Assembly (NCBI GenBank): GCA_017591395.1
Contig: WEDG01001293.1
Location: forward strand, 248,001-312,000
Source of the DNA: Schistocephalus solidus
Taxonomy: Eukaryota > Platyhelminthes > Cestoda > Diphyllobothriidea > Diphyllobothriidae
Reading direction: 5' to 3'
DNA: 64,000 nt
Under the pieces are notes generated by a model, which had not been told where the DNA came from, did not search any database, and saw nothing but the letters and a program-made list of their open reading frames with translations. Shown here piece after piece: positions 1-64,000 of the stretch. Every line of letters begins with the position of its first letter. Position 1 is the first letter of the stretch. The translations under genes were made by a program, and so were the position numbers.

Positions 1-473
1 GGAAATTAAAACGCAGCACTGGAGGCTTTATCAAGGGTGAACATTGTTCCATACTTTTGTTTGCTTGCATTGATGTGTTGATTGAAGCCTAACGACTGAG
101 CTTTATTTATGAGTTTAGAAGATCATTTATCGATTGGCTATTCCTATGCTTGCCACTAAATTCCGCACATACTTCCAGTCCGGAAATTTGCTGCAATAGA
201 TATTTGCTCAAGTACCAAACGAAGGATGTGGAGTTCTGAATTCAGCGCGGAATCTGGAGATGTAGGGACAATAGCAGGACACCTGCAATTTCGTTTTAAG
301 CTTTGCGGTTCGACTGAGGAGGGAAGGTAGGATCGTGCTGAATGCAGTGTGCCCAGTAAGAGTACGCACAGCTTGTTGGCAGTCTATGCGCTAGGAATGC
401 TGCATCAAGATCGCCGCTGCTAAAGCAGGAATAAGTACTGTATAAATCCTGTCAGTGGGTTGATTCTTAGTAC
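1..473. other. No recognisable feature
   Basis: I see no open frame, RNA gene or repeat that I can name here. The stretch ends in a TA dinucleotide run that marks the left edge of the hammerhead-element array. Confidence 0.4.
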
Positions 474-489
474 AGTATATATATATATG
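474..489. repeat. (TA)n microsatellite at left edge of hammerhead array
   Basis: A short TA run directly precedes the truncated first unit of the tandem element. A similar run at about 1207-1219 closes the array on the right. AT runs of this kind may be the insertion or recombination sites that trimmed the array. Confidence 0.7.
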
Positions 490-521
490 TTTCGAATCCC
501 AGGTGTGCTACAATTGGGATT

Positions 522-576
522 GGGTATGACTGGCTGATGATGGCTAATAAGCCAGAAATGGCCATTCCGGTCTCCC
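522..576 (+). ncRNA. Hammerhead ribozyme, type I, unit 1
   Basis: All core elements are present in order. Stem I 5' strand is GGG (522-524), loop TAT, GACTGG (528-533); then CTGATGA (534-540). Stem II is TGGCT/AGCCA with loop AATA (541-554), followed by GAAA (555-558). Stem III is minimal: A558-T565 and T559-A564 closing GGCC. H17 is T566. The stem I 3' strand CCGGTC (567-572) pairs with GACTGG with one G-U wobble, then T, then CCC (574-576) pairs with GGG. Predicted cleavage is between 566 and 567. The pairing and core match the known hammerhead rules; activity is untested. Confidence 0.87.
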
Positions 577-750
577 TTGTCTTTGTCGGTTCCACATTAT
601 CAACATATGCTGCACATCGCTATGCAACCGCCTGTGAGGGCTCTAGTCTGAGTTCCAGGGCACAACGGAACATAAATGTTCCTCAAGCAGATCGGTGAGC
701 CACACACTATCATCATATTCCCAATCGCAACCGACAAAGCAACGAGCCCG

Positions 751-804
751 TGGCTCAATGGTAGAGCGTTCGACTCAATTACCAAAGGTCGCGGGTTCGA
801 ATCC
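751..804 (+). promoter_or_regulatory. Internal pol III promoter (A and B boxes), unit 2
   Basis: The A box TGGCTCAATGG (751-761) and B box GGTTCGAATCC (794-804) match the tRNA internal promoter consensus, with 32 bp between them. The surrounding tRNA-like sequence is degenerate, so these are best read as promoter boxes of the small element rather than as a tRNA gene. Transcription would start just upstream of the A box and run through the hammerhead. Confidence 0.75.
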
Positions 805-826
805 CAGGTGTGCCACACTTGGGATT

Positions 827-881
827 GGGTATGACTTGCTGATGACGGCTAATAAGCCAGAAGTGGCCATTCTGGTCTCCC
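827..881 (+). ncRNA. Hammerhead ribozyme, unit 2, decayed core
   Basis: The layout matches unit 1: CTGATGA at 839-845, stem II at 846-859, stem I partner at 872-877. The conserved GAAA is GAAG (860-863), stem II starts with a C-A mismatch, and stem I (GACTTG/CTGGTC) has a U-U mismatch. Loss of the last core A should abolish or strongly reduce cleavage, so this unit is probably dead. Confidence 0.75.
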
Positions 882-1053
882 TTGTCTTTGTCGGTTCCAT
901 TCCATCATATGCTACACGTCGCTATGCGACCGCCTGCGAGGGCTCTAGTCTGAGCTCCAGGGCACAACGGAACATACATGTTCCTTAAGCAGATCGGTGA
1001 GCCCCACACTATCATCATATTACCAATCACAACCGACAAAAACAACGAGCCCG

Positions 1054-1107
1054 TGGCTCAATGGTAGAGCGTTCGACTCAAATACCAAAGGTCGCGGGTT
1101 TGAATCC
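1054..1107 (+). promoter_or_regulatory. Internal pol III promoter (A and B boxes), unit 3
   Basis: The A box TGGCTCAATGG is at 1054-1064. The B box is at 1097-1107 with one change from the usual TTCGA core (TTTGA). Spacing matches unit 2. Confidence 0.7.
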
Positions 1108-1129
1108 CAGGTGTGCCACACTTGGGTTT

Positions 1130-1184
1130 GGGTATGACTGGCTGATGACGGCTAATAAGCCAGAAATGGCCATTCCGGTCTCCC
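1130..1184 (+). ncRNA. Hammerhead ribozyme, type I, unit 3
   Basis: Stem I 5' strand is GGG (1130-1132), TAT, GACTGG (1136-1141). Then CTGATGA (1142-1148), stem II with loop AATA (1149-1162), GAAA (1163-1166), palindromic stem III sequence ATGGCCAT (1166-1173), H17 T1174, and stem I 3' strand CCGGTC (1175-1180) plus CCC (1182-1184). Only the first stem II pair is a C-A mismatch. Predicted cleavage is between 1174 and 1175, so the two inter-cleavage distances in the array are 305 and 303 nt. Confidence 0.83.
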
Positions 1185-1206
1185 TTGTCTTTGTCGGTTC
1201 CATTCC

Positions 1207-1219
1207 ATATATATATATG
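1207..1219. repeat. (AT)n run between hammerhead array and PLE
   Basis: A short AT run separates the truncated third unit from the 3' end of the minus-strand Penelope-like element. Confidence 0.6.
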
Positions 1220-1247
1220 AAAAGAAAAATGCTCTTCGGGAAATGGA

Positions 1248-1304
1248 GTTTTACTCGTAAATTTTCAAGTTGGTGACACCAACCCGTCGTCAGACGAAAT
1301 GAAC
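1248..1304 (-). ncRNA. Hammerhead ribozyme in PLE-1 3' UTR
   Basis: Read on the minus strand: outer stem I GTT (1304-1302), loop, TCGT (1297-1294), core CTGACGA (1293-1287), a 20 nt stem II built on GTTGGT/ACCAAC with two outer G-U pairs (1286-1267), then GAAA (1266-1263). Next come a palindromic AATT, H17 U at 1259, and ACGA (1258-1255), which pairs with TCGT; AAC (1250-1248) closes the outer stem. An extra unpaired C sits at the base of stem II. Predicted cleavage is between 1259 and 1258. Hammerheads are known from PLEs, which supports the call; activity is inferred. Confidence 0.65.
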
Positions 1305-1594
1305 AGAGGAGAAATTGAAGTGGCGTGACCGGACAGATAGGGACAAACAAACAGCTGGTGTGAGTGGGTGGTGGGTGGACAATTAATTGGGACATGTTTT
1401 GGGACGGGGGAGGTGAGAAGAGAACAATTACATTGGCTTGTTTGGGAGGGGGAGGTGGGCAGCGAGTAACTACGGCCGGCTAGATTATCTATCATGGTTC
1501 CGGGTTGGATGTGGGGGTCACTGCGTCGGTTGGAGGTGTCGGAATGTTTAATTGCGGTTCACCACGTGTGAGGTGGGGTTTGCGAAAAGTGAGA

Positions 1595-3840
1595 TTAGCA
1601 GTCGTTGCTAGGGGGTGGGCGCCCGTTAGTAAATCGTGATCGCAATCCTTCGTTATGAGCATCTAGGTCAACGTGGCGGTTAATGCTAGTTATGCTAGAA
1701 TGCAAAGCTTCGAGGAGTTCTCGAGCTTGTTTGGTGTTGGCCATGACGATCACTTTGGCACCGTCCCAATTGAGCGATGGTCGCATTCAAGGGAGTGCGC
1801 GAACACGAGTGATAAGTGGTCATGTCGGCGAAGGGCTAGCTTATGTTCGTTGATGCGAGTCCCAAGACGTCGGCCTGTATGGCCAATGTAAACAGAAGGG
1901 CAGTTGGCACACGGTATGCGGTAAATGACATTGCTTAAATGTTCTTTTGGTAGGAGGTCCTTTACTCTGCATAGGGTTGCGAGTGTGGAGGACGCAGGCT
2001 TGTGGGTGACAGAGATGCCAAAGTTACTTAATTGTCGAGAGATTGTTTCGGAAACACCTTGCATGTAAGGTAAGGAATAAAATTTCCGTGGCACTATATC
2101 TCCATTAGAAACAAGGTTCTGCGTTTGTCTCTGGCGTCGAAGACAATTTTTCATGAAGCTCGTTGGGTATCCATTGGACCGGAAGAACTGATACAAAAAG
2201 GATAGTTCTTTCTTAAGATGGTCATCGCTGCTGCAATAGCGGAAGGCCCGATGGAAAAGGGTGTGAACACAGCTTCTTTTGTGGGCCGCAGGGTGGTTAC
2301 TTGCATAGTTAAGCACGATTTCCGCAGTAGAGTCCTTTCGGTGGACGCTTGTTGCGAGTCCACCATCACTGAGTCGTTGTATGTTCACGTCTAGGAATTG
2401 TAGTATATCTCTTGTTGCAGCTTCGCGTGTAAATTTTATAGTCAGGAAGACCCCATTCAGACTCTGGTGCGATTGCTCAACGTCACAAGTCTTGATGATA
2501 ACGAATGTGTCATCTACGTAGCGGAGCCACATCTTTGGTTTGAAACGTTGTAAGACGCCTTCTTCTAGTCGCTGTAAGACTAGTTCGGCAAGTAGCCCCG
2601 ATATTGGAGAGCCCATTGGGGTGTCCTTAACTTGTTAATAGTAGTTGCCATCAAATTGACCATAGTTCTTAAGGCAGAGCTTAAGCATGTCTGAAACGTG
2701 CTGCTTTGGAATGCCGATAGGATTTTCTCTAGGCATCGCTCTATGCTGTCAATGGTCAAGTTATGCGGTATAGAGGAAAACAGAGAAACAACGTCGAACG
2801 ATACAATACATTCGTCAGGACTTACTTGAACTCCTTGTATGTTCTGTAGGAATGCCTGCGAGTTTCTGACGTTGTATCATGATCTGTCAATGAGGTGCTT
2901 AGTTTCCTGTTTAGCCATTTGACAAGATTGTAGGTCGGGGATCCAATAAGCGGTACTATGATCCTCAATGGTGCCTCTGGTTTGTGCACCTTTGGAAGGC
3001 CATATGCATTTGCGACACGGGGGTCACTGAGGGTCATAAATCTGGAGTCCTCGGGGCTAATGAGTTTCAATTGAGAACATTCATTCACTTTCTTCTTTAG
3101 AGAAGCTGCCTGTTTTTTCGTTGGGTCCGCATCAAGTGGGGTGTACGCTTCCCTGTCATTGAAAATCTGGTTTGCCTTGTTGACGTACTCGGTCTTGTCC
3201 ATGATAACAGTTGCGCCACCTTTGTTAGCAGGCACAATGACTATACTTTCATCTGTTTTCAGTGATTTCAATCCCTTCGCTTCTTCGATTGCTAAGGTTT
3301 GATGATGTTTCCTTTTCCGAAGGAGACCAGTGGCGCAGCTACGTATGTCCGCACGTATGTCCTCGGGGAAGGTGGAGGTCAGCAGAAGGGATTCAAGATT
3401 GGTTAGGAAGTTCGTCGGTGAAGCATCGGCATGGCTGAATTTTATTCCTTTAGATAAGAGGTTTATTTCAGAGGATGTTAGATTCCTTTTGGACAGGTTA
3501 ACAACCGTCGTCGGCATGCTGTTTTAATTTGTAGAACGGAGAAGAGATTTGAATCTCTCTTGTAGGTCGGTTCGTTTCTTCATTCTGGCGTCCTTGTTGG
3601 TGGAAATTATCCTTTGCAGTACTTATTCGGTTTTTAAGGTCGGCGATTGTGGCTTCGAAGAGGCAAATACGATGGTGGACGTCGGATATAACGGAACTCA
3701 AAACGCGGAATCCATATTTGCGTGCGAGTTGTCTTTCAGTCTCATTGGGTAGAGTGGGCTTGAATCGAAGTGACTTCGGAAGGATACCGCGATCGCGACA
3801 GTGGTGGAGGAAATTTAGTTGTTTGTAAGTCCTCGCCTGT
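1595..3840 (-). pseudogene. PLE reverse transcriptase / GIY-YIG protein, broken
   Basis: Penelope-type polyprotein read from high to low coordinates. The N-terminal region runs to about 3520. Next are the RT fingers with GLPKVHKP and GSPTYNLVKWL (about 3010-2920), a SFDVVSLF box near 2790, MGSPISG at 2616, and the catalytic YVDD at 2520-2509. A GIY-YIG nuclease follows with C-x2-C then VYIGHTGRRLGTRINEH (about 1895-1840). The tail continues in another frame to 1595. Lesions: a frameshift near 3590, in-frame TAA at 3526-3524, frameshifts near 2875 and 2730, TAA at 2637-2635 (expected Gln before VKDTPMGSP), and a frameshift near 1770. With only about six lesions it is a fairly young copy, but it cannot encode an intact enzyme. 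It would copy RNA at nicked targets and is a plausible partner for the neighbouring hammerhead element. Confidence 0.85.
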
Positions 3841-4219
3841 CTCTCTATATATATGTAAATATGGAGACAATAAACCTTCACACTTTGTGTTCGGTTCACA
3901 TTAACAATAAGGCTTTCAATTTCAGATGCAATGGTGTAGCACTTTCGGGTTTCAACCCTCTCAAATGCAAACCACATTCTTTAAAGGATTTCCCACATCA
4001 CCCCCTTACTGAAAAGGTAAGTAAGCTGCAGATGTTGATGTGACTTGTCAAAAACGACCCCCTACTAAATCTATAAATTGCCTGACGTTTTTCTGAGCCT
4101 GACCATAATTTTGGTAGGAAAAAAAAACAATATTGTGCTTTTAGCCTTAAGACGCTTGGTCTCATTCAACATGACATCTTTAGTCTCACTCATCTCACTG
4201 AATTCGGCGCACGAAGTCC

Positions 4220-7105: not shown

Positions 7106-9723
7106 CGGTGGTTTACCGCAGGTTGTCGTGGAGGCGCATGCGTCCTAATAGGCCCATGTGGGTGTAAATTTGCGGAAGCAGTGATGGCGTCTACTGTATG
7201 TCGGAACCCCAGGCACTGGTTCACCAGCCTCCGTGCGATGGATTCGCAGGTGACCGACCGGGCCAATGCGTGAGTTGAAATTGTGGGCGCAGTGTGGGCA
7301 GGAGAAATCGGGAGAGGCTGGGAGGATGTCATTCATGGTAGTTGGGGTGGCAGGGGCGCTAAGAATGGCAGGAGCGGAGGGTGTGCATGGTGTATCGGTG
7401 TTGTCGGCATCGTGGTGAATTCCGCTGTCATGGATGCGCATGTGACCGAATAGGCCCATGCGATGAGTGAATGCGCGAGGACAGTGAGGGCAGTGGAGGC
7501 AACGATCTCTGCTGTGTGATGGTGCTCCAGGCACTGGCTCACCGGTCTCTGTACGATGTATTCGCAAGTGACCGACCAGGCCGATGCGTGAGGTGAATGT
7601 GCGGTCGCATTGAGTACAGCTTTGGAGAGATTCCCCATTGCTGATGGTGGTGGTAATAGTGAAGGCGAAGGCGGTGGTGGTTGCGGTGGTGGGGGGTAAC
7701 AGGTGATGAGTATTGGGATGTGGTCTCTATGATGGTGGGAGTAATGAAATTGATGCCAGGAGTGAGGGTGGGGAGTCTGAAGGAGGATTGGCAGAATTTG
7801 ACGCAGAAGTTAGAATATTCGGATTGTTGGTGCATTGCGTCCGAAGATATCTGACCAGGCTGATTCGCGCGCGGAAGATACGTTGACAGCGCGGGCATGT
7901 TGGAAGGGCCTGGGTATCGGCGGTGTTGGTCCGGGGCGCTGGTGACTTTCGTGTCGCTCCTTTGGACTTGGTGGTGGCGATCCGGTTGGCCTCATATATT
8001 ACTGCACCAGTCTTCACGGATCTTCTCTATGCCGGTCTATCCTGGGCGAGGTCCTTCCAGGTCGCCGGGTTGATTTGCAGTTGCTTCAGAGATTTCTTCA
8101 AAGTGTCCTTGTAACGTCGTTTTTGACCTCCCTGTCGGCGAGCACCCGTAGCAACATCTCCATGGAAAAGTCGTTTTGGTAGTCGCTCGTCGTCCATTCT
8201 TACCAGGTGGCCGCTCCATCGCAGTTGCACTTGCCTCAGCATGGCGTGGATGCTGAGGATTCCGGTCCGCTCCAGGACTTCCGTGTCCGGTATCCTGTCT
8301 TGCCATCTCAGCTTCAGTATTCTGCGGAGGCAGCCGAGATGGAAGTGATTTAGCTTCTTGGCTTGGTTCGAGTAGACGGTCCAGGCCTCCGCTCCGTAAA
8401 AGAGTGTTGTGAAGATGACGGCCTTGTACATCTTCAGTTTGGTGTTCAGGTGAACACTATCACGATTCCACACGAAGGCCTACAGCCGGCCGAAAGCCTG
8501 ACTGGCTTTGGAGATCTTTTGGGCAACCTCATCATCGATTCTCGTGTTGCGTGACAGCGTGCTTCCTAGATAAGCGAAGGTTTCCACGTTTTTGAGTTGA
8601 GCACCGTTGACATTGATTCGGGGAGCATTGTATTCCACGCTGGGTGGTGGCTGGTGCATGACAACCACTTTGGCTGTATTGGTTGTTAATCCGAAATCGG
8701 CGCAGCCTGCGGCGAAGAGGTCCATGCTCCTTTGCATATCCTCCTCCGTTACGGTGTTAAGGCCACAGTCATCCGCGAAGAGCAAGTCATGGACTGTAGT
8801 CGTAGACACGCGCGTTATGGCCTGCATACGCCAACTGTTGAGAAGGTGCCCGTCAGTTCTGTAGGCGATGCGGATCCCATGCTGCTCATCATGGTAGGTG
8901 TCCATCAGCATAGCAGAGAACATGAGATGAACAGGGTGGGGGCCGGTACGCAGCCCTGCTTCACTCCATTGGTCACTGCGAATGCTTCATATACCGTCCC
9001 GTTGTCAGTGACGCGCGCCGTCATCCCGTCATAAAGCTGACGCACCATGTGCGTGAACCACACAGGTAAGCCGAATTTCTGCACGACTTTACATAGTGCG
9101 TCACGATGTACAGTCTCAAAGGCTTTCGTTAGATCCACGAAGGTAGTGTAAAGGTGAGTTCGCATCTCCTGGCACTTCTCTTGTAGCTGGCGGGCGGCAA
9201 AGACCATGTCTGTTGTTCTGTGGTGTCGGTGGAAGCCACATTGGCTTTCAGGGCGCAGTCCCTGTTCTAGGTGACCGTTCAGACGATTAAAAAGGATACG
9301 GGCGAAGATCTTCCCGGCGATGTTGAGCAACGAGATGCCTCTGTGATTATCACAGAGTTGCCGGTTCCCCTTCCGTTTGTAGAGATGAACGATGGTCGCG
9401 TCTTTGAAATCCTGAGGAACTTGTCCTTGGCGCCACTTCTCCCGGAAGAGTGCTGTGAGTTCTGCCATCAGCCGGAGCCCGCCGTGCTTGTAGACTTCCG
9501 GTGAGATTGCGTCGGATCCCGGTGCTTTACCGCTGGAAATCTGCTGCACGGCCCGGATGGTTTCTGGTAGGGTAGGCGGCAGATCCAGGTCATTGTTCGT
9601 GTCCACTTGAGGGAGCCGGTCAATGGCAGCATCGGAGATGGCTGATGAGCAATTAAGGACACTTCTGAAGTGCTCGGCCCAGCGCTTCAGAATTTGCGAT
9701 TTCTCTGTCAGCAGTGACGGCAC
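7106..9723 (-). pseudogene. LINE-A RT with C-terminal C2H2 fingers, nearly intact
   Basis: From 9723 downwards: RT with the SSGKAPGSDAI box, NHRGISLLNIAGKIFARIL, FVDLTKAF, GVKQGC, and the catalytic FADD box after 8923. Then a C-terminal region with [13 protein letters not shown] and a [21 protein letters not shown] stretch. Downstream are one C2HC-like and at least three C2H2 fingers such as CPHCPRAFTHRMGL...HMRIH, joined by linkers with HRTETGEPVPG, similar in style to the TGEKP linker of zinc-finger proteins. The last finger is in a shifted frame and ends near 7106. Lesions: a one-base deletion near 8930, and TAG codons near 8478 (expected Gln) and 8025 (expected Trp). The endonuclease is missing through 5' truncation. 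The enzyme would prime reverse transcription at a nicked target; the fingers presumably bind nucleic acid. Confidence 0.8.
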
Positions 9724-10697
9724 AACAATTCATTATGCACCGATTACGCGTGCGCTATTCTCTACCTATAGACGAGATCTTTTTGAATTCAAATCACGTG
9801 CTTCAGTGATCCCCTACTGGTTACAACTTGTATAGTTGGCTAAAGATAGAAAGGCATCGACAAACGGCTAATTCAGGATTCCCATGCCGGAGAATTATCG
9901 ATTATTTTTGGGACCCATACAACTTTCTACGCAAGTTTTCTATCGAAGGTATGACCTACGGGCTGAGTGCCCGCACGAAGCACTCATGTGCGCACGAAAA
10001 TGTGCATTAACGCGCGCATTTAATTTCTCGCTCTCGTTCGGCAACAGTCTGCCCACTAACCGCGCACTTAACTGTTGTCAGTTGGAGTACCGCAGCACTG
10101 AAAGCAGAGGCCCAAAATACCGGCTGTTAAAAAGTGTGCTGGTCAGCTGGATGCTGCTAGAAAGTTACGCGCCTTCTTTCTGTAATCTTTTCCATCGCCT
10201 TATCACGGCCAAGTCTCGGATTACCTAACAAAGGTAGAACCTTTCCATCTTTGAAATCTTCTCCGACACGAGCGCTGGCCCCACATGTGAGACCAGGCGC
10301 ATTACAAATTACATCACGTGACTCGTGATTTAACTAGCGAACTCTTCACATCGCTGTTAGTCGCATTATTAGGCTTCTAAAAACAACGTTCAAGCGACTG
10401 CCAGATGAATGGTTCGCTAACTGCCAAGGTAATAACAATAGTTGTGTAGGCTAGGGCCCTTGGTTAACTGTTTTCCGTTCGTTTGCTTTGGTTGCCTGTG
10501 TGGCACCGCACTATTCAATTCCGGTCACCTAGGCGAACGTTGTGATTAAGCGATTGACAACTAGTTGAAGGCACTGGCTTGTTCGATCAGAATTCAAGAG
10601 GTACAGTACTCTAATTATGCAGGTTAAATATTTAGTTGGATAGTCATTTGTCGAGAAGGCTACAATACACGCCAGCACGAGTGCTCCACCGTCTAAG
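9724..10697. other. Unassigned sequence upstream of truncated LINE-A
   Basis: This is the flank of the 5'-truncated LINE-A copy and the 3' flank of the next LINE-A copy. I see no gene or nameable repeat in it. Confidence 0.4.
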
Positions 10698-13105
10698 TCC
10701 GATGATGTTTACCATTTAATCCACTGAAGCGTGGTGCAGGGATGGCGACTTGCGCGTGGATTAGTTTTAAGTGATAGTATACTTGCGCTGCAGCTACAGC
10801 ACTCTCTCCTCCTCCCCCACCTGGACCCGGTGCCATGACAGAGTTAAGAAGAACGGGGATGGGAGAAGGCACAGGTAGCTGGCGCGGTCGGAGTAGCCCT
10901 TGAGTGTGCCGCCACACCTGGCTCGGATTCCACGGAGTGGGAGTGCCATAAAGGTCACATGAAGAAGGAGCCAGTGCAGCCTGACTCTCAGTCCGTCAGG
11001 CAGCCCATCCACACAAAACACACACTGGGCTGACCACGCGTTCCGCGTTATCCCGTCAGTTGGTAACCTTCCAAGCCACGGCTTTTAGCGCACCATGATA
11101 GTTTCAAGCGTGTCAGCTTGTTTATAGTGAGGGAAAATGCGCTGATCTGTCGACGTCACCCTCTTCCCCACTACCCACAATCAGACCACCGTCCGATTCG
11201 GCCAGTTGTCAGATGCGGAAGTGGGCACAGCAGCTGGTGACCTCGTCTACGCGTACTTCTTACATGACCTGCCCCCAAAGACAAACACCAGGATTTCACA
11301 CAACAGGGGGTTGAACGGCTCACATCTCACATGCGGGAGATAGCCAGAGGTCACGTTGAAAAATAGCCACCGCAGCCTGACTCTCTGACCACCAGTCAGC
11401 CACTCCACACAATACACACTGGACTGATTGCGAGGTCTGAGTGTACTTGTCAGTTGGCAACCTTCCAAGCCACAGCGCTTATCGCCCTCTGATATTCTCA
11501 AGCTCAGATCACACATTCGGCAGAGGAGCCACATGGAGAAGGAGCCGAGGATAATGCTTGCCCCTCAATCAGTTATGCAGACTGAGAGCATATTTTTGTG
11601 GTTTTGCGTTTGATTATGCGAGGTGCATAGGCTGATGAGGAGAGATGTAGTGGTGTGGTATAGCTGGTGGTGTTCTAACGCAGGTTTTCATGGAAACGCA
11701 TGTAACCTAATAGGCCCATGTGGTGTGTGAATGTGCGCGGGCAGTGCGGACAGTTGAGGCAGGTGCGGCGGGTGTATGTTGGTGTTCCTGCCACTGAATC
11801 GCCGGTCTGTGTGCGATGGATTCGCAAGTGACTGAGCAAGCTGATGCGTGATGTGCATGTGAGATGAGAATGAAGACAAGATACGTCAGGAGGTGCTGCG
11901 TCTACGGGGGCTCTGCTGCTGGTACTGGTAATCGAGCTCATGGGAAGAAGATGGAAAGTGTTGATGGGTGCGTAAGATGGGCTGGCATCGCGGTGGATTC
12001 TGTCTACGTGGATGCGCATGTGACTGATCAGGCCCATACGGTGAGCGAATGAGCGGGGGTAGGTAGGGCAATGGAGGTGGCGGTCTCTGCTGTGTGGTGG
12101 TGCTCCAGACACTAGTTCGCCAGTCTCTGTGCGACTGATTCGCAAGCGACCGACCAGGCCGATGTGTGAAGTGAATGTGCGATCGCAATGAGGACAGGTT
12201 AGTACTCGAGTCCCTATCGCTGGTACTGGGGACGTTGGTAGTGGAGGTAGTAGGTGGCAGGTAGTTAGAGGTGGCTACTGAGGTGGCGAGAGTGGAGCAA
12301 GTGGTGTTCTTCGCCATGATCAGCGCAAAGGGTGGAGGAGGGAGGATGATGTCGGTGATCGTCGGTGGCGGGGCATCGATGAAGTCGTTATCAGTGGTTG
12401 GGGTGGGCATCGTCATGGGGTCTGAGGCAGGTGTGGCAGAAGTTGTTGTGTGATTATTGTGGCATTGCGTTCGAAGATGTCCGACCAGGCCGATTCGCGC
12501 GTGGAATGTGAACGGACTCACCCGAGCAGCCCGTAGAGTATGGTGCGGGGGATGGGGACGGGGGTATTGTTGTTTGTTTGAATTACGACCGCTTATTTTG
12601 CGATCTGCAAGCCGCAGCCTGCTGCAGAAGACGTGATACCCAGCATTTTTAAGGTTACCTTTTCTAGCCCCTTCCTCCTTGAGGAGGCAAGCAGTGCTGT
12701 CCCTAAATAGGGCTGCTCTGACATCGAACTCCACTATGGGTGATGGTTTTGTTTTAGTGGGAGAGCGACCCGAGTTAGTCTGAACCGCCTACGGGATTGC
12801 TGTAGCGCTCGCTTTAGGACTTTTGAGATGGAGGGAGCCAGTGGGAATTTCGGGAGTCAGACGTACCGAGTGTGGAGGCCCACACAACACCGGAGACCCT
12901 CACCTCGTTTAGCCCTCCGGTCGTGACGGTTGCCCGGGGTGTGGCCACTGGAAAGAACCCAGCTTTGGATGGAGTCACAGTTGAGAGTTGGGTACCAGTT
13001 AAAGGCGGTCACAAGAGCATTCACCATCTGTACGAGACAAAGGGAGTGACCAAATGCTATCTGTGTGTTGCTTCCCCTTACTTGTACCGCCCTACAACTC
13101 CCACA
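10698..13105 (-). mobile_element. LINE-A copy 2, internally deleted (EN and RT absent)
   Basis: The 5' UTR (13105 to about 12740) matches the 5' UTR of copy 3 at 45.95-46.44 kb. The coding start follows. After the block GGGCTGCTCGGGTGAGTCCG (about 12531-12512) the sequence jumps straight to the first finger of the C-terminal array (GCGAATCGGCCTGGTCGG). The whole APE endonuclease, RT and linker, several kb in the long copy, are therefore missing. The finger region (to 11675) and both 3' UTR modules (to about 10700) are retained. This is a non-autonomous LINE-A derivative with both transposition ends. Confidence 0.75.
11675..12735 (-). pseudogene. LINE-A leader fused to zinc-finger array
   Basis: A 282-codon frame starts with the LINE-A leader (MEFDVRAALFRDSTACLL), crosses the deletion junction near 12510 and enters the finger zone as a Thr/Pro-rich reading. 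The fingers continue in another frame to 11675, with HCPTYPRSFAHRMGL...HMRIH, then a decayed finger, then CPHCPRTFTHHMGL and a stop after HENLR. One frameshift separates the two halves. If expressed it would be a protein of fingers only. Whether it was ever functional is unknown. Confidence 0.6.
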
Positions 13106-46439: not shown

Positions 46440-49400
46440 GTGAGTCCGCTCACTCTAGCAGCCTAGAATGTTCGCTCGCTTTTAGAAAATTTGAGGAGCA
46501 ACCAACTGCAACGGAGGATGGCACTAGTCGCTCGGGAACTGGCACGCTACAAGGTGGACATCGCTGAACTCAGCGAAACCCGATTTTCTGAGCAAGGTGA
46601 ACTGGAGGAGGTGGGTGCCGGTTACACCTTCCTCTGCAGCAGCCCCCAGGCAGAACGAAACGAAACCGGCGTCACCTTTGCCACCCAGACCGACATCGTG
46701 GGACGTTTGGCCTGTCTGCCGCAGAACAGCAATGATCGTCTGATTAACCTCCTCCTGTCTCCTCGGTGAGACAAGTTCGCTACCATCGTCAGTATCTACG
46801 CCTCCCGCAATGACAGCTCCGATGAGGTAAAGAGCAAATTCTACGCGGATCTGCACGCCCTCCTGGCGACTGTGCCGAAGGTGGAGAAGTTGATTGTCCT
46901 TGGTGCTTTCAACGCCGGTGTCAGCACAATCAATACCATGTGGAGAGCAGTGCTGCCCCCCCCCAGTGCCTACGGCTTCAATGACAACAGCCTTCTCCTT
47001 CTACGAACCCGCGCAGAGCAGCACCTCATCCTGAGCAATACCTTATTCTGCCCTCCGATGCGACAGAAGGTGACCTAGATGCATCCCCAGTCAAGACACT
47101 GTCACCTGCGGGATTACGTTGTTGTCCGGAGACGAAACTAGGAGGACGTGGTGGTGCCAAGGGTGATCTCAGGTGCCGATGGATGGATCAACCATCGCCT
47201 CGTCATTCCCAAAATGAGGCTTCGTCTGCAAACACGCAGGAGACCCCAAGGTAAGCAACCAGCAGGTAAGTTAAATACCGTTTTGTTGAATGAGCCTGCT
47301 CACCATCTCCATTTCAGCAGTGAAATTGGTCCACCGGTTAGACAACCTTTCAGTCACTGACAAGAACGCCTCCGTGGAGAACCACTGGTGTCAACTGAAG
47401 GACGTGGTCCAATGCAACACCCTGGATGTCCTCGGCCGCGCACGTCATCAACACCAGGACTGGTTCGATGACAACGACGCAGCCACCAACGCTCTGCTCA
47501 CCAAGAATAACCGGTTGTACAAAGCCTACGCTGACTGCCCTACCGATGCAAACAAGGCAGCAATCTACCGAAGTCACCGTCTTGTGCAGCAGCGGCTGCG
47601 GGAAATGTAGGACGCCTGGATGGCTTGCAAGGCCCAGTAAATCCAAGGGTACGTGGACCGCAACGATTGGAAGAACTTCCTTGCTGTCATCAAGGCTGTC
47701 AACGGTCCACCGTCAAAGGAACAGTTTTTCTTCTCAGTGCTGATGGAACTACCCTACTCACAGAGGATACTAAAATTCTGAAGCGCTTGGCCGAACACTT
47801 TAAAAGCTTCCTTTACCACCCCTCCACCATCTCCGACGTCACCATCGACCAACTGCCTGAAGTAGAAACCAACACTGACGTTGATCTCCTGTCCTCTATC
47901 CAGGAAAACATCAGGGGCATGCAGAAACTCTCCAGCGGGAAAGCACATGGACCGGATGCGATCCCAGCTGAGATGTATAAGCATGGCGGCCCCCAACTAA
48001 TGCATCAGCTAACAACGCTCTTACAGGAGATATGGCGCCAAGGAAAGGCTACTTAGGATATCAAGGACGCCAAAATCGTCCACCTCTAAAAGCAGAAGAA
48101 GAACCACCAACTATGCGATAACCACCGAGGAATCTCGCTGTTCGATATTGACAGGAAAATCTTCTCCCACATTCTCCTCAACCGCTTTAACAACCACCTG
48201 GAACAAGGACTCATTCCGGAAAGTCAATGCGGCTTCCACCGTCACCACGGCACCACCGATATGGTCTTCACCGCGCGTCCGCTACAGGAGAAGCGCCAGG
48301 AGATGCGGACTCACCTGTACTCTACTTTCATGGAGCTGACTAAAGCCTTCGACACGGTGAATCTCGAAGGACTATAGAAGATCGTAAGAAATTCAGCTGT
48401 CCCGAGCGATCCATTTACATGATGCGTCAGCTCCATGATGGCATGATGGCGCGCGTCAGGGACAAAGGAGCCGTCTTAGAGGCATTCACAGTGACCAACC
48501 GAGTAAAGCAGGGCTGCGTCCTCGCGCCTACCTTCTTCAGTTTCATGCTCTCTGCCATGTTAATGGACGCCTAACGCGACGACCGCCCCAGGGTCCGCAT
48601 TGCCTACCGGATGGATGACCAACTCCTCACAACGGCGGATGCACTCATAGTCACATGTGTCAGCAGCCACCATCCACGAACTTCCCTTCGCTGACGACTG
48701 CGCACTCAATGCGATGAAAGAAGAGGAAATGCAAAGGAGCATGGACCTCTTCGCTGCCGCTTGTGACAATTTCGGACTTCACATAAACACTGAGAAAAAG
48801 GTTGTGATGCATCAGCCGCCGCCCAATACCATCTACACCGCAGCTCCCATCAACGCAACGACAGAAGAGGACATAAAAAGGAGCATGATCCTCTTAGCTG
48901 CCGCTTGTGACAACTTTGAACTGTTAACCAACAGGGAGACAACGGTGATAATGCACCAGCCACCACCCAACACCGCCTACAAAGGACCTTGCACCAATGT
49001 CAATGGCACCCAACTGAAAACCGTGGACATCTTTACCTACCTGGGAAACAACCTCTATCGAAGCACAAAAATCGATAACGAGATTGCCAACCGGATCGCC
49101 AAGCTTTCGGACGCATGCAGAATATCATCTGGAATCGACGCGGTCTCCACCTAAGCACCAAAGTCAAGATATAAAAAGCTGCAGTCTTGCCTAAACTGCT
49201 GTATAGAGCAGAGACCTGAATGGCCTACCAAAAACATGCATGGAAGCTCAACCACTTCCACATCAGCGGCCTTCGCTGAATACTGAAACTGAGATGGCAA
49301 GACAGGATCCCGGACACAGAACTGTTGTAACAAACACGCCTCCTCGACCTCCATGCCCTGCCGAGACAATTGCAACTGCACTGTAGTGACCAGCTCTTGA

Positions 49401-51265: not shown

Positions 51266-51583
51266 TTCGGGTTGCCTTCCAGCTAGGGACCAAGAAGTTG
51301 TTTCCAATTTTGAATCTGTCGCGAGGCGGAGATTGTGATTAATCCTCACCATAAATATTTAACAAATAACCAGCTTGATGTAGAAACTAAGATGTGTTTG
51401 ATGCTTACACGTTGTTCTGTAACACATCCAAGCTAGCATTTTGCCTCAAATCATTTAAAAAGAGGTATACCTTTATAGGTTTGTACTGAATAGTATAAAA
51501 TTTTCAACATGAATATGAATATATATGCAAGGGGGATAAAATATAATAAAAGAAGGTTGTTTGCTCGCCGGAATCATGTTTTT

Positions 51584-51640
51584 TTTCGACTGAGCAATTG
51601 AATTCGTACTGGAGTCCATCGTCAGAGATAAAAGTGGTAA
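51584..51640 (-). ncRNA. Decayed hammerhead in left arm
   Basis: CTGACGA on the minus strand at 51625-51619, stem II closed by GACT/AGTC around a long loop (51618-51588), GAAA at 51587-51584. The sequence after GAAA is a poly-A run with no stem III or stem I partner, so it is unlikely to cleave. Confidence 0.45.
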
Positions 51641-51947
51641 CAAAAACAAGCAACAGTTATAGTGGGCAGAAGCGAATCAGACACCAGTGATGCCAGTCCA
51701 GAGGTGACTGCGCAGGTCTCTGTATGCCAGCGCCAGATCGATAAATCAATTGACCAAGTTCTCACCGGAGGCCCAGGTTTCAATCAATTCTCGGCTGGTC
51801 TTGCTTCTGGCGTGGGCAATTATCTCGGTCAATCGATTTATCGATCTGGCTCCGGTATACAGAGCCCTACGCAGTGCTTTCCGGACTGTAATCACTGGTG
51901 TGCGCTTGGTTCCTGCCCCCAATAACTGGTGCTTGTTTTTGTTGCCA

Positions 51948-52003
51948 CTTTTATCTCTGACGATGGACTCCAGTAAGAGTTCGAAAGTTCAGACGAATAA
52001 AGC
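51948..52003 (+). ncRNA. Hammerhead-like motif in right arm
   Basis: Stem I 5' strand ends TCT, then CTGACGA (51957-51963), T, stem II GGACTC/GAGTTC with loop CAGTAA (51965-51982), GAAA (51983-51986), GTTC, then AGA (51991-51993) pairing with TCT, with ATAAAG further out pairing with CTTTTAT. The core is complete, but stem III (A-GT-T) is not a perfect palindrome and stem I is short, so activity is doubtful. Confidence 0.5.
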
Positions 52004-52017
52004 CATGATTCCGGCAA

Positions 52018-55000
52018 ATGAACCATCTCTACTTATCCATACACCTGGAAGGCGAACATTCGCCTCAATTCGGGATTAAATATTCCTTCCCAAAGATTCC
52101 GTTTCAGAAACGGTTGGCAAGGAGCATTGGTCAAATATACCAATGTGCGTGCTTACGCTACTGTGAAAATTAAATTTAGGTGTTAAAACAGGTCTCTTCT
52201 TCCCTAATGGTTTACCCATCTTGCTCACAGAGACCACAATAGCTTCGAGCAGTCGTGCATGGTAGAAACGATGTTGTGGAGAAGGAGAACCATTCAGTAT
52301 CCTCCGTATTCCCACAGTTTTAACTAACATGCCTTGAGAAGGAGGTCGGTAGCAGCAAAAATCCAGCCATTTCGCGCCAGTACTACACATGATTCATATA
52401 GGATGCTATCATGTTCCAAACGAACCACAACTGCTCAGCTCCACATAAAATGCAGAAGATTATTTAGGTTAACTACGACGATGCTAGTGGCGCTGAAAGT
52501 TAAAGATCTTAACTGTGAATGTTAGGAGACTTCCCCCAGCGTAGTCCGACAGCCACATGACTATTATTCTTCCCAATAGAGACAGAGTGGTTCTGACTGG
52601 TAGCTTGTTTTTTCACCAATTCGAAATTCACATGAAGGACGTAAGGTTGCACGATGGCTGTATATGTGGTATATGTGCTGGGAACATTGTCATTTGGCTA
52701 CCATGACAAATAAATATTCATCTCTGAGCTTCTAACAAATACTTGAATTATTTCGCATGCAACAGTCTCTCAAAAGATGTCATCTTCTACTCTTAACAAT
52801 AAAGTTTCACCTTTCCGAAATCTCGGTGTTGACCTAGCTTCAGAGCCCTCATTAATCCTTCAAATCATTTTCTGATTTATTAAAATGAAATATTCGCGAT
52901 TTAAGATGCATCACCCATATTCCCTCTTTGGATATTGGCATCTTGTTAATGTTTTAGTCAAAACGTTCAAGCGCATCGTTCACCAGATTATTGAATATTT
53001 TCTTTACCTATCCTATTTTTCTCTAGCTTCTTTGGCATGGCTTTCGTCATATCTCCAGTTGCACGCCGATTTATCAGCGATGGTCTTATTATCTCTGGCA
53101 CGGTTTAAAATGTGCAATGATAGAAAAGTGTAGAAAAGAAGACCTAACTTGTCACACTGGCGATAATAGTTTTTGCAAATATCTCGATTTATTTTCAATT
53201 AGCCACCGTTTGTATTTTGGTATGCGTAATGGGCAAAAATTGTTTGCCCCAAATGTAAAAAATTGCTTCACAATATGACATATTTATTTCTCTCGCTTTT
53301 TCAGTGTACGTCTGTCCATTTTCGAGTACCTGTGGAATAATTTAAATAGCTCAAACGAATAGATGCTTATCCAAACTACCATATAGTTATCAGCCTACCC
53401 GGAACGATGAAGGAGCTACCAGGAGAATCCACCCTACTAAAGTTGTTCTGTCAAGAAGTGAGCAGTAACGGGGCCACAAGGATGGAACCATCCCAAGTTC
53501 TTAATGTGACGTATGCTCGCCTCATCAGATTCCGTGAGCATGCGAATAAGCAACTCTAGTCTACGTCTGCCAGTTTGCCGCTCTTCACGAATGCTTCGCC
53601 ACTCCATGCAACCACGTAACTCGAGAAGCTACCCATAATGACGTGGAAAAAAATATTTAACATTCCTCTCTAGCTGTCTCGTTATATTTGAATTCTTTGT
53701 GCCTACACTCTTTATAGTGTTTACGCTCACATAACAGATAGAATGAATCGTTAAAAAACGCCTCTATAATTAAAAATATAAAAGACCAGAAGGAACGAAT
53801 ACTATCACGTTCGTTAAAAGTTTCCACAAACAGTTAAACATTTGGCACCCAATGTAGCAGCCTTTGAGAATCCAACATAACTGAACACTAGCCACCTGTC
53901 TCTCAAGCTATCCTTTCACCTGTCACAAGGTTTTACGCATTTGGAGATGTAAACGACAATGGCTGCTAATGTTACAGAGACGCCAGGTCAATAGAACCGA
54001 ACCTTATGCCCTCACCTTAGAACTCTTACGACTATGCGCCATCACCATCAATTACGTCAATCAAGCAGCCTTTTCGCCTTGGGCGTGATCATGCACCTAA
54101 CAGCGACGGGCCAATAGCCGCGCCGCCCAAGAGGATGAGTGCCAAGAAATGCTGAAAGGATGGACAGCGATAGGCTGGTTAGCAGGTGCAGAGGTATTTA
54201 TTAGCCAATCAGCGCCAAGGACAGGAGGTCTGAAATGTACTCAGGCATGTTAGCAAGCATTTTAGGACTTGTCTAGAGGTTTGACTTTAGTCTCACACAC
54301 AATAATCAAATACTTCAATTTGGCCGTCGTCGGTGAGTTGTGTTCTGATCAGCACTTCCAAAACTTATTACATATTTCAAAGGACTGGAAAAAATTCCAA
54401 AAAATAATTAAGAGCAGGAGTATTCTTTTGTTTTTATAATCAAAAGTTTATTTGAAAAAGAAACTTTGCACTTCACTAGCAGTTTCACGATGTGCCCGTT
54501 TACTACCCACCAAGCTTAAAATTCTCCATTTGCCTTTCGTCTCCAATTTTGACTAATTTAAAAGACTAGTTCTAGTTCTGATATCCAAATGCTTGCTGTG
54601 AGTTTAGATTATTTTTATTTCTTGCTTTTGCTGAGTTACACGCAAAATTTCCAAAAATATTAACCAAACCGAAAGTCCGGATGCTTTACACCCAGTCCCC
54701 AGGTTCGAAAAGTGCTTGATGAAATATTCTTGAACCATTCGGATTTATGACGTTATGCTTCATCTAGCTGAAAAGCGACGGTGCCTTGAAGAACCTATGC
54801 ATAAAATGATGGTTTGAGAAATGTCTTCTAGCTATGGGTGCTTCTGGTCGCTGCCTTCTTAAAGTGGGCGACTAAGCTTTGAATTCATTTACAAGGGTCA
54901 CTTTGAGCAAGATGTCTCTTGATGAACTCAGAATACTTTTTCTTCCGGATCTATTAGATAGTTTTATCAACTGACAAAAAGTCGAATCAACACTGAAAAA

Positions 55001-62700: not shown

Positions 62701-64000
62701 ATGTTTAAGGCTACGTTTTAAAACCTAACTCAAAAATACCAATCTTACTTGTAAAGCGTAAAGTTAATTAGCCCACTACGCATTCAAATATTTTTAGAGG
62801 CATAAGACGTAACATTTAGAAAGTGAAGTTAGTTGATAATTATCGATGAAATTCTATCTCATCTGAGTATTTTCCTTGTTGTATTTCTACGGGGCCTTGA
62901 AGAGTGACAAGACTACGTTATTTTTTCATTTTTTTGTAACGCTTATCGCACATTTGCTTTGAGCGAACATCAATCACGCATGCTATCTATAAACAATTCT
63001 ATCAATTTTTCTATTATTTGCATAGCCTACGGCCTTTCCTACCTGGACGATATCACCATCTAAGTGAAATATGAGGGACAGGCAAATGCGAACTGCCTTG
63101 CTTCGTAAAAGTGGAAGTGGACGGTTTTCGGAAGATCCTTGTGGTTATCCATCAGGATATAACTTATGCGGAAGAATTGCGCAAACTAACGGGGGTTTAG
63201 AGGAAAATATTATATTAGGAATTGCAGTGTATTCCCACCAAGCTACGAGAATTGATATAAATTTAGTCACATTTACTATAGATCGTTAACCAGCCGAGAG
63301 AAAGAAGTTAAGCTTTGATGATAATTAACTTCAGGGAATTTAAATAGGTACAGTGTGCTCTGAAATTCCTAGAAGATAGGCTTGGATCCTTGAGTGTGCA
63401 TTCAGGTAAAAATATTGCTTGAGGATTGTTTTAAAAAGGTCTAGCTGGGAATATTTTCCCAGGTAATAACAAACGGTAACCTTAATACTGTTATCTCTTC
63501 CACATAAAATGCACTTGCACTTAAAGCCACTTTAATCAAGGGCTGCTTTCACTAAATTTCCCAAACATAATTGCAGAAGCGTTCAATTTGTATTAATAAT
63601 TTTGCAGAAAATTCGGTTCGAGTTGCTTCTAAAAAAAGACACATTTCTTTGCTAACATGATATTATGCAGGCTATGTCAGCTTACATATCTTATGTGAGG
63701 CTTCTTAGGCAGAAATTAAAGTAGGAAACATAGTCGTTTTTCCTTGAAGTAGTAAAAATAACACATATTGGCTTAATTTTGACTGGATCACATGCCGGGG
63801 AGGAGAAAGTCTTTAGGAACTCACGATCATTCCTTTCAAAACATCTACTGATGAGCACAGTCTGCTCAGAGAAACGTAAAATATGGACCTAAATCTTTAA
63901 CTAGCTATTAATATGAGAAATGAGTACTTAACAAGTCTTTAAATAGGAGTTACAGCTTTATCCGCCTATGCAGGAATCGTCAATGGACAGCGGGAGGCCT
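59766..64000. other. AT-rich region without supported genes
   Basis: No recognisable coding or RNA feature. Frames at 59764-60003, 61549-61734 and 63071-63289 (+) show no known motif. A CTGATGA followed by a hairpin and GAAAC near 63849-63880 recalls the hammerhead core but has five extra bases before GAAA and no stem I, so it is not called. Confidence 0.4.

Follow-up and report, generated by a model that had tools for sequence, protein, structure and literature searches.

A high-copy retrozyme-like tandem array at (TA)n runs of the tapeworm Schistocephalus solidus and its probable integration by a Penelope-like element protein

The array and the neighbouring Penelope-like element

The window, a stretch of 64,000 nucleotides of the Schistocephalus solidus genome, contains a short tandem array close to its beginning. 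The array had been claimed in a preliminary description, and Tandem Repeats Finder confirmed it at positions 491-1212, with a period of 303, 2.4 copies and 92% matches. Together with a blastn chain to the monomer consensus, its limits were set at 489-1206 on the forward strand. It consists of a 5'-truncated unit (489-566), which starts at about monomer position 227 within the B box, two full monomers of 305 nt (567-871) and 303 nt (872-1174) between predicted cuts, and a 3' stub of 32 nt (1175-1206), which extends from the last predicted cut to a reverse transcriptase (RT) start site, termed site A. Internal copies of the site A motif ATAT, the first start site, were found in the sequence at 605-608 and 907-910, and internal copies of a second start site, termed site B, at 708-718 and 1010-1020, all on the forward strand. 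A (TA)n run at 476-488, taken to be the target microsatellite, forms the 5' boundary of the array, and a second run at 1207-1218 is common to its 3' end and to the 3' end of a Penelope-like element (PLE), which are arranged tail-to-tail. These two runs flanking the array are the only runs of (TA)6 or longer in the window. Among the listed repeats of 60 bp or more, no further direct repeats were present around the array. The GC content is 52.0% for the monomer consensus, 50.8% for the array and 45% for the window.

The PLE lies on the reverse strand (1219-3845) and was delineated from its ORFs, an alignment of 3' ends and its protein relatives; its 3' end is at the (TA)n run, and its 5' limit is uncertain. 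An ORF piece at 1750-2634 (reverse strand) encodes the end of a reverse transcriptase followed by a GIY-YIG endonuclease, in that order. The Pfam scores were below the respective cut-offs (RVT_1 26.5 bits, cut-off 29.6; GIY-YIG 21.2 bits, cut-off 22.6), the identity was 75% with Sparganum proteins and 74% with those of Spirometra, and relatives such as P0006 list both domains. The protein relatives are in keeping with a diphyllobothriid-like tapeworm as the host. For the ORF piece upstream of it (2822-3523, reverse strand) no Pfam family was found at E 0.01, and it was assigned to the PLE by its position and its co-linearity with the endonuclease piece at another locus (L010). The PLE also carries a minimal hammerhead (1254-1298, reverse strand). 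Its predicted cut is at 1259/1258, and the (TA)n run follows 40 nt further downstream; the minimum-energy fold of this stretch is the hammerhead, with stem I UUCGU/ACGAG and a 9-bp stem II.

Hammerheads and tRNA-like parts of the array

Three hammerhead stretches had been proposed for the array, at 522-576, 827-881 and 1130-1184 on the forward strand, and both these positions and the proposed cuts at 566/567, 871/872 and 1174/1175, spaced by 305 and 303 nt, proved correct in the sequence. Motif 1 has a complete core with a U-A pair at 10.1/11.1. Motif 2 indeed has GAAG instead of GAAA and in addition one stem I mismatch, and it is predicted to be probably impaired. Motif 3 has a C.A mismatch at 10.1/11.1, the base of stem II, which was also found in unit 2 and in 51 of 65 distinct motifs. 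All six pairs of stem I (GACTGG/CCGGTC) are present in units 1 and 3, whereas unit 2 has five of the six, and stem III is a palindrome without a loop (AUGGCCAU).

No Rfam hammerhead family reached the gathering score in the window, and none was found at E values up to 5 in positions 1-4000. In the stretches sampled from the genome (see below), a hammerhead scan that required a fully paired stem II gave 7 matches, and a laxer scan gave 96. When the three units were folded singly, none of them had a hammerhead as its minimum-energy structure. For two copies of unit 3 the best predicted dimer fold was a double hammerhead. For two copies of unit 1 the best dimer was more stable than the double hammerhead by 1.8 kcal/mol, and the double hammerhead was in turn more stable than two monomers by 5.9. 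For unit 2 the best dimer was more stable than the double hammerhead by 9.0. These predictions suggest that the hammerhead probably acts as a dimer, owing to its palindromic stem III. Among the 65 distinct motifs most pairs of stems I and II either did not vary or had a change in one partner only, and the paired counts were near the shuffle means. The hammerhead ends of the unit had an identity of 0.97-0.98, compared to 0.88-0.96 elsewhere (20-base windows), and the PLEs carry a second hammerhead, the stems of which are entirely different. The hammerhead fold is thus supported by the dimer prediction, by the elevated identity at these ends and by the PLE hammerhead with different stems.

A weak stem III and activity as a dimer have been described for some animal retrozymes (PMC7229834), and the satellite retrozymes of newt and axolotl are described as having no clear stem III and better activity as dimers (PMC7229834, PMC6155905, PMC7761336). 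The weak or absent stem III and the preference for dimers, which is predicted for the tapeworm element, are alike in the tapeworm and the amphibian elements as described, and the hosts differ. To our knowledge, no tRNA-like promoter is present in the newt and axolotl elements. PLE hammerheads are likewise reported to cleave in dimers, to which the predicted dimer can be likened.

A and B boxes had been assigned to each unit. Both were recovered in two tRNA-like stretches on the forward strand, at 744-812 (A box 751-761, B box 794-804; Rfam tRNA score 21.7 bits) and at 1047-1115 (A box 1054-1064, B box 1097-1107 with one mismatch; 24.7 bits), the cut-off being 29 bits; the boxes were assigned with what we take to be the box consensus. 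Unit 1 is devoid of an A box, because the 5' truncation falls inside the B box. ARAGORN detected no tRNA anywhere in the window. Among the sampled full units an A box was present in 50 of 58, an intact B box in 37 and both in 33.

The Sm-alpha element of Schistosoma mansoni has tens of thousands of candidate copies (PMC2770079, PMC2576457), and its hammerhead is reported to cleave fast (PMC6155905). The tapeworm element is comparable to Sm-alpha of schistosomes, by its features rather than by a sequence alignment: as far as they are described, Sm-alpha and Sj-alpha are also flatworm elements that are tRNA-derived and SINE-like, with pol III A and B boxes and a hammerhead. In contrast to Sm-alpha as described, stem III of the tapeworm hammerhead is a loopless palindrome.

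Copy number and insertion scars in the genome

The core pattern CTGATGANGGCTAATAAGCCNGAA had 24,170 exact matches in the 604-Mb genome, and the reversed control had none. One exact 28-base pattern was also sought in viral contigs, with 0 matches. A sample of 52 array segments, each at least 60 bp long, was compiled from 41 stretches with a total of 308,630 bases. As 40 of the stretches were picked at listed core-pattern matches on contigs C2-C30, the sampled ends and identities represent places with an intact core. Whole-genome junction counts are free of this bias; they refer to the forward strand, since reverse-strand counts of gapped patterns were inflated by repeated matches and were left out.

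A (TA)n run adjoined 31 of 49 resolvable array 3' ends in the sample, and 28 of these 31 ends were at monomer positions 30-39 or 142-149 (p about 2e-31 versus uniform), the exact positions being soft because at ATAT motifs an alignment may overrun into (TA)n by a few bases. The other 18 ends had no adjacent (TA)n, and six of them ended in the alignment at position 302, with diverged sequence beyond. The two preferred sites, A and B, are about 110 nt apart and contain the only two ATAT motifs of the monomer consensus. In the whole genome 1,336 forward junctions with (TA)n were counted at site B and 1,123 at site A, whereas two control points gave 9 and 3. The anchors of the sites and of the controls occurred 71, 75, 41 and 36 times in the sample. 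On the 5' side of the two site anchors the genome-wide numbers were 49 for site B and 31 for site A. In the sample (TA)n adjoined only 11 of 50 array 5' ends, including those in the window and at L014, L042 and L043. Up to 300 bp from arrays, runs of (TA)6 or longer numbered 0.83 per kb, versus 0.056 elsewhere. Recurrent 3' ends, variable 5' ends and dispersal are signs of a retrotransposed, non-autonomous element. Many insertions in the sample were shorter than one unit, and 13 of 14 close pairs of arrays on opposite strands were head-to-head.

These results bear on the possibility that the array is ordinary satellite DNA, in which unequal crossing-over multiplies the units and the hammerhead and the tRNA boxes are relics. 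Sampled arrays reach up to 14 units (L017), and some, including the longest, are homogeneous, as would fit a satellite. The 3' ends at two motifs, the (TA)n flanks throughout the genome, the asymmetry of 3' and 5' junctions (1,336 to 49 and 1,123 to 31), the head-to-head arms and the many partial-unit insertions with retrotransposition-type ends all argue against it, making it extremely improbable. The arrays in the window and at L015, L025, L034, L040 and L043 mix subfamilies. An origin of every array by rolling-circle copying was dropped, because a single circle does not simply account for the mixed ones.

It has also been considered that (TA)n is not the target and is made at insertion, by a telomerase-like PLE RT that copies AUAU repeatedly. 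The runs are often long, and many head-to-head insertions have (TA)n beyond each of their two arms, which would agree with such a synthesis. Single arrays with (TA)n at the unprimed 5' end, among the 11 mentioned above, speak against it, and we assign it a low probability.

The PLEs of the genome were characterized in the same way. Cervera (2014) and Lunse (2017) reportedly worked on PLEs with minimal hammerheads. Here, 126 forward junctions of PLE 3' ends with (TA)n were found 25-55 nt past the GAAAATT of the hammerhead, those listed at about 36-45 nt, and 91 forward junctions were found at a second PLE site, 39 nt from the first. The first site is followed by ATTATA. Among 36 sampled PLE tails seven carried a further PLE arm in inverted orientation that stopped at the second site, and six of these seven arms ended against (TA)n. 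The PLEs thus have the same signature as the array element, i.e., a minimal hammerhead, two downstream start sites, (TA)n and head-to-head inserts, and the distance from the hammerhead to the first start site, about 32-41 nt, is common to both. PLE coding sequence made up 11.9% of the bases up to 1.5 kb from arrays and 1.3% further away. Only two insertions were PLE/retrozyme chimeras: at L049, which a control search brought up by chance, a PLE tail switches into retrozyme sequence, and L053, one of the 36 sampled PLE tails, combines a PLE arm with an arm of the retrozyme family that ends at the equivalent of site B.

A tRNA-derived SINE that is moved by a LINE would explain the tRNA-like part with its A and B boxes, and the window contains an RT ORF of a different kind at 8905-9729 (RVT_1 72.6 bits), which we guess to be of the LINE type. 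Yet a poly(A) tail was absent at the sample junctions examined, the element inserted into (TA)n and has an arm from either side, PLEs share the ends and the target, and retrozyme/PLE chimeras are present. A LINE-driven origin is therefore very improbable.

Identity of the element and its proposed mobilisation

Metazoan non-LTR retrozymes are described as tandem repeats of 150-450 bp with a type I hammerhead and many copies (Cervera and de la Pena 2020, PMC7229834), and the element has the same repeat size range, hammerhead type and high copy number. A GC content below 50% is a stated property of animal retrozyme repeats and not part of their definition (PMC7229834), and plant and metazoan retrozymes seem to be promoterless according to a review (PMC7761336). 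In contrast, the tapeworm element has tRNA-like A/B boxes and a GC content of 52%, and neither its insertion into (TA)n nor its pair of start sites nor its head-to-head arms are part of the description of metazoan non-LTR retrozymes, as far as consulted. The retrozyme identity put forward in the preliminary description is therefore upheld by the tandem monomers of about 302 nt, the type I hammerhead, the A/B boxes, the dispersed high copy number and the retrotransposition-type ends; the GC content does not agree with it.

The biochemistry of PLEs comprises cleavage and extension on both strands at an AT-rich target, with two internal start sites, the interval of which forms a "tail" of 30-40 bp (PMC11167929). 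It fits the PLEs of this genome, which have a start-site interval of 39 nt, appear to use both strands and have an AT-rich target. The retrozyme resembles PLEs with minimal hammerheads in that the hammerhead is followed by two RT start sites, and in the AT-rich target and the apparent use of both strands, but it comprises about 302 nt with no ORF assigned, and its start sites are about 110 nt apart instead of 39 nt. Judged from these sequence features, the array probably represents a metazoan non-LTR retrozyme of high copy number, which has a tRNA-like pol III promoter and is integrated at (TA)n by a PLE protein. Integration of the retrozyme RNA by this protein is indicated by the shared signature, the 3' ends, the head-to-head arms and the PLE/retrozyme joins.

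In the cycle that we infer from the insertion scars, every hammerhead in a read-through transcript of an array would cut, and the resulting unit-length RNA would be ligated into circles. The PLE protein, with its RT and GIY-YIG endonuclease, would take up this RNA and may recognize it through the module shared with PLE RNA, a hammerhead with two RT start sites downstream. The protein would open a (TA)n microsatellite, and each of the two DNA ends would prime reverse transcription, with starts at sites A and B. Repeated passage round a circle would yield tandem arrays, and two tandem arms would meet head-to-head and be joined. Transcription, self-cleavage, circular RNA and enzyme action are thus all putative steps.

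The start sites of the anole PLE are reported not to be homologous to the cut DNA (PMC11167929). In contrast, AUAU in the retrozyme matches the (TA)n target.

Because of this match and the ATTATA after the first PLE site, microhomology alone might choose the start sites. An endonuclease-independent capture has also been considered, in which (TA)n breaks spontaneously and any RT extends the TA ends on AUAU-bearing RNAs. It would be in line with the location of the only two consensus ATAT motifs in the start sites, with the ATTATA of the PLE, and with the few control junctions, many of which are also at short TA matches. However, PLE and retrozyme share the distance from the hammerhead to the first site and each has a second site, their joins point to one RT, and PLE coding sequence is enriched near arrays, so that the capture appears improbable.

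Integration by the PLE protein could also involve a pairing of templates. A dimeric PLE RNP might carry two RNAs, each PLE or retrozyme, that are paired via the palindromic stem III of their hammerheads and are each primed from one side of the (TA)n break, and the hammerhead would then also serve to pair templates. This would fit the palindromic stem III of both elements (UGGCCA and AAUU), the use of different start sites by the two arms of several insertions, and the mixed PLE/retrozyme insertion; it is tempting to speculate along these lines, and we regard the proposal as rather unlikely.

In the retrozyme descriptions cited here platyhelminths are mentioned once, with no species (PMC7229834, PMC7761336). 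Among the matches listed in CC-licensed PMC papers there was no report of hammerhead elements in tapeworms, and none of retrozymes that are targeted to (TA)n or joined to PLEs. PLEs are named as likely candidates for the mobiliser of animal retrozymes (PMC7229834, PMC7761336). The insertion scars of this genome offer an answer to the question of the mobiliser, since insertion into this target can be read from the mark that it leaves, and there are thousands of junctions. For the PLEs the genome represents a test of one in vitro study, which found two start sites past a hammerhead and the use of both strands; head-to-head products would be expected from this. Taken together, with its pol III-type promoter and its probably dimeric ribozyme the element could be a natural source of an abundant circular RNA of about 300 nt in the parasite.

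Fold, tRNA-like part and abundance of the retrozyme

The retrozyme array at window 489-1206 begins with a partial unit, which is followed by two full monomers and a stub of 32 nt (period 303, 2.4 copies, 92% matches). It was verified that the three proposed hammerhead stretches (522-576, 827-881 and 1130-1184) and their cut points are exact in the sequence, and that unit 2 indeed has GAAG instead of GAAA. Stem I (GACTGG/CCGGTC) has all six pairs in units 1 and 3 and five of six in unit 2. Stem II is GGCU/AGCC with the loop AAUA; its base 10.1/11.1 is U-A in unit 1 and C.A in units 2 and 3, and C.A was also found in 51 of 65 distinct motifs of the sample. Stem III is a palindrome without a loop, AUGGCCAU. 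Single-copy folding of the three 55-nt stretches yielded the full hammerhead fold in none of the three. With two copies, the double hammerhead was the best structure for unit 3: stems I and II form in each copy, and the intermolecular stem III has all eight pairs. In the best dimer of unit 1, stem I forms in both copies and stem II in one, without intermolecular stem III. Relative to this dimer the double hammerhead is less stable by 1.8 kcal/mol, and it is 5.9 kcal/mol more stable than two monomers; for unit 2 its energy exceeds that of the best dimer by 9.0 kcal/mol. Dimeric hammerheads are known from newts and Penelope-like elements (PLEs) (PMC7761336, PMC6155905). The pattern CTGATGA-GAAA has six matches in the window versus 1.4 expected; one at 63848-63874 (plus strand), which could form a short stem between its two motifs, is either a further hammerhead or a random match.

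The preliminary description had assigned A and B boxes to every unit. This holds for the two later tRNA-like stretches, whereas in unit 1 the A box is missing, since the array begins inside the B box. A search of Rfam returned only tRNA, below threshold (21.7 and 24.7 bits), at the tRNA-like stretches bearing A and B boxes. A pol III terminator-like TTTT is present in 8 of 58 full units, which would allow read-through.

In the host genome (603.7 Mb, 8,019 contigs) the core pattern had 24,170 exact matches, and its reversed control had none. The element is a real retrozyme, as had been proposed, and a very abundant one. Related families were seen in several fetched stretches (L018:697-2821, with a 307-bp period, L014, L028, L029, L040 and L046); they have the hammerhead and the tRNA 3′ part in common, and their bodies are diverged. 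At L021:4842-5276 (minus strand) three tandem copies of a unit of about 145 bp carry the same hammerhead, and the tRNA-like part was not seen; this unit is smaller than the circles of about 170-400 nt reported for animals.

Array ends and the probable (TA)n target

The sample comprised 40 stretches fetched around listed core matches plus the window (41 stretches, 308,630 bases). A 302-nt monomer ruler was built from 54 full units, and 52 array segments of at least 60 bp were chained, same-strand neighbours at most 25 bp apart being merged into one. When ends at stretch edges were left out, 31 of 49 3′ ends abutted (TA)n, and 28 of these 31 lay at monomer 30-39 (site A) or 142-149 (site B), for which the chance is about 2e-31 under a uniform model. 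Sites A and B, which we read as start sites of reverse transcriptase (RT), are the places of the only two ATAT motifs of the ruler, and end positions are good to a few bases, since alignments can extend into (TA)n at these motifs. The remaining three ends lay at monomer 21, 248 and 263. Among the 18 3′ ends without (TA)n, six stop at monomer 302; in L028, L029, L040 and L046 a related family with another body continues there, and L020 and L037 go on with diverged retrozyme sequence towards a (TA)n. For several of the other twelve no explanation was found. The 5′ ends were scattered, and 11 of 50 abutted (TA)n. Ten of these 11 lay at monomer 190-257, the tRNA-like part and just beyond (e.g., window 489), as if RT halts at that fold.

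Junctions were counted genome-wide as a 12-base anchor followed by (AT)6 within 30 nt, on the forward strand only, because reverse counts were inflated. Site B had 1,336 junctions and site A 1,123, versus 9 and 3 at two control points; on the 5′ side the same anchors gave 49 (site B) and 31 (site A), and several of the listed 5′-side junctions are themselves tiny head-to-head joins. The anchors occurred 71, 75, 41 and 36 times in the sample, and thus anchor frequency explains a factor of about two at most. The exact site A junction occurred 495 times on both strands, its reversed control not at all. In L009-L028 and the window, the 27,618 bases lying up to 300 bp from arrays contain 23 (TA)6+ runs, versus 13 in 232,892 bases elsewhere; the window has only two such runs, both bounding the array.

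Of 14 opposite-strand neighbouring segment pairs within 80 bp, 13 were head-to-head and one was tail-to-tail. Overlaps of 1-9 nt were seen at seven head-to-head centres and one of 25 nt at an eighth; the other five have gaps of 9-69 nt. The two arms of a pair often do not share one outer site: L010 has B and A, and L016, L023 and L033 have A and B. Head-to-head arms with differing outer sites are the expected trace of two-sided priming at one break.

At 18 informative positions, units disagreed in 9.5% of comparisons within arrays versus 45.7% between arrays (95 units, weighted by long arrays). Arrays in L012/L013, L017 (14 units), L038, L042, L027 and L029 are homogeneous or nearly so at the site A haplotype, and haplotypes are mixed in the window, L015, L025, L034, L040 and L043. 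Homogeneous arrays would arise if RT passed repeatedly round one circle, and mixed arrays would call for multimeric templates or a switch of template. Because arrays may also be homogenised by unequal crossing-over, the circular template is a putative step; the nearest relative was in the same array for only 34 of 66 units.

The adjoining Penelope-like element and chimeric insertions

Beside the array, the minus-strand PLE at window 1219-3845 encodes the end of an RT domain followed by a GIY-YIG domain, each just under the Pfam cut-off. The relatives of its protein include those of Sparganum (75% identity), Spirometra (74%) and Schistocephalus, which makes a diphyllobothriid-like tapeworm the probable host. 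The (TA)n run at the 3′ end of this PLE is also that of the retrozyme, the two elements being arranged tail-to-tail. One run common to both ends was seen at window 1207-1218, in L078 and on a further contig (G000:C158:54231-54290), which suggests that the same microsatellite is used repeatedly. In stretches of at least 9 kb and the window, PLE coding sequence accounted for 5,064 of the 42,396 bases lying up to 1.5 kb from arrays versus 2,634 of 198,402 farther off.

A (TA)5+ run lay downstream of 10 of 16 PLE matches and was absent from six, within at most 1.5 kb of downstream sequence and for some much less. Five PLE 3′ ends (window, L010, L011, L012 and L016) align mutually and stop at (TA)n. 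Each has CUGANGA, then a stem and then GAAAAUU (or a closely similar sequence) 69-76 nt ahead of the (TA)n; the alignment has a sixth copy, L010 6756, which continues beyond the stop point. Minimum-energy folding of the copies in the window and L016 gave a hammerhead whose stem I is UUCGU/ACGAG and whose stem III does not extend past AAUU. Genome-wide, 126 forward PLE-type junctions were found, with (TA)n starting about 36-45 nt after GAAAATT among the matches listed. One exact PLE tail had 53 junctions, for 36 of which 251 bp were fetched: the PLE continues through in 22, and an inverted PLE piece is present in eight. In seven of these eight the piece ends at a second site 39 nt farther along the PLE, six of the seven against (TA)n; this second site has 91 forward junctions genome-wide. 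The distance from the cut to the first start site is about 32-38 nt for retrozyme site A and about 36-41 nt for the PLE. Taken together, the hammerhead, the ends, the (TA)n and the inverted pieces of the PLE indicate that both elements have a hammerhead, two start sites, the target and the head-to-head form in common.

Two insertions combine both elements. L049 is a single insertion inside (TA)n, the left retrozyme arm of which ends at site B; the right arm opens next to (TA)n with PLE tail (about 28 nt), followed by retrozyme from position 200 up to 35. From its sequence, the right arm reads as if RT began on PLE RNA and moved on along retrozyme RNA. In L053 a PLE arm stands opposite an inverted retrozyme arm, which belongs to a related family (70% identical to the ruler, 94% to L040, where a hammerhead core is nearby) and abuts (TA)n with its end at the equivalent of site B.

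Elsewhere in the window, repeated C2H2 zinc-finger ORF pieces at 7145-7991 and 11675-12788 (minus strand), diverged copies, lie beside RT-like ORFs. A 144-bp tandem duplication (48706-48993) is located within the ORF frame 48651-49154, which resembles the RT-like ORF at 8480-8986, and an inverted repeat at 51554-52028 has arms of 205 nt, 80% complementary and spaced by 65 nt.

Comparison with known systems

According to Frangieh et al. (2024, PMC11167929), an anole PLE protein cuts AT-rich DNA, cleaving both strands and extending each; from this we would predict head-to-head products. Internal RT starts occur at two sites downstream of its hammerhead, and the interval between them is the 30-40 bp 'tail' of genomic copies (PMC11167929), which the 39-nt interval between the tapeworm PLE sites matches. 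The two systems differ in one respect: the start site of the anole PLE has no homology to the cleaved DNA, whereas in the tapeworm AUAU or ATTATA faces the TA ends.

Published work describes metazoan retrozymes and proposes PLEs as their mobilisers (PMC7229834, PMC7761336); schistosomes are known to carry hammerhead SINEs derived from tRNA (PMC2770079, PMC2576457). A search of mostly open-access literature revealed no report of the tapeworm family or of PLE-made (TA)n insertion. What appears to be new is a tapeworm retrozyme family and, above all, direct genomic evidence for a putative PLE-made two-sided (TA)n insertion. Cleavage, circularity, transcription and the enzymatic action of the PLE are what we infer from these patterns. 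A PLE-mobilised retrozyme is, as a whole, a quite probable explanation, confidence in it being slightly reduced because the double hammerhead is the best dimer for unit 3 only. The retrozyme case makes the question of mobilisation testable.
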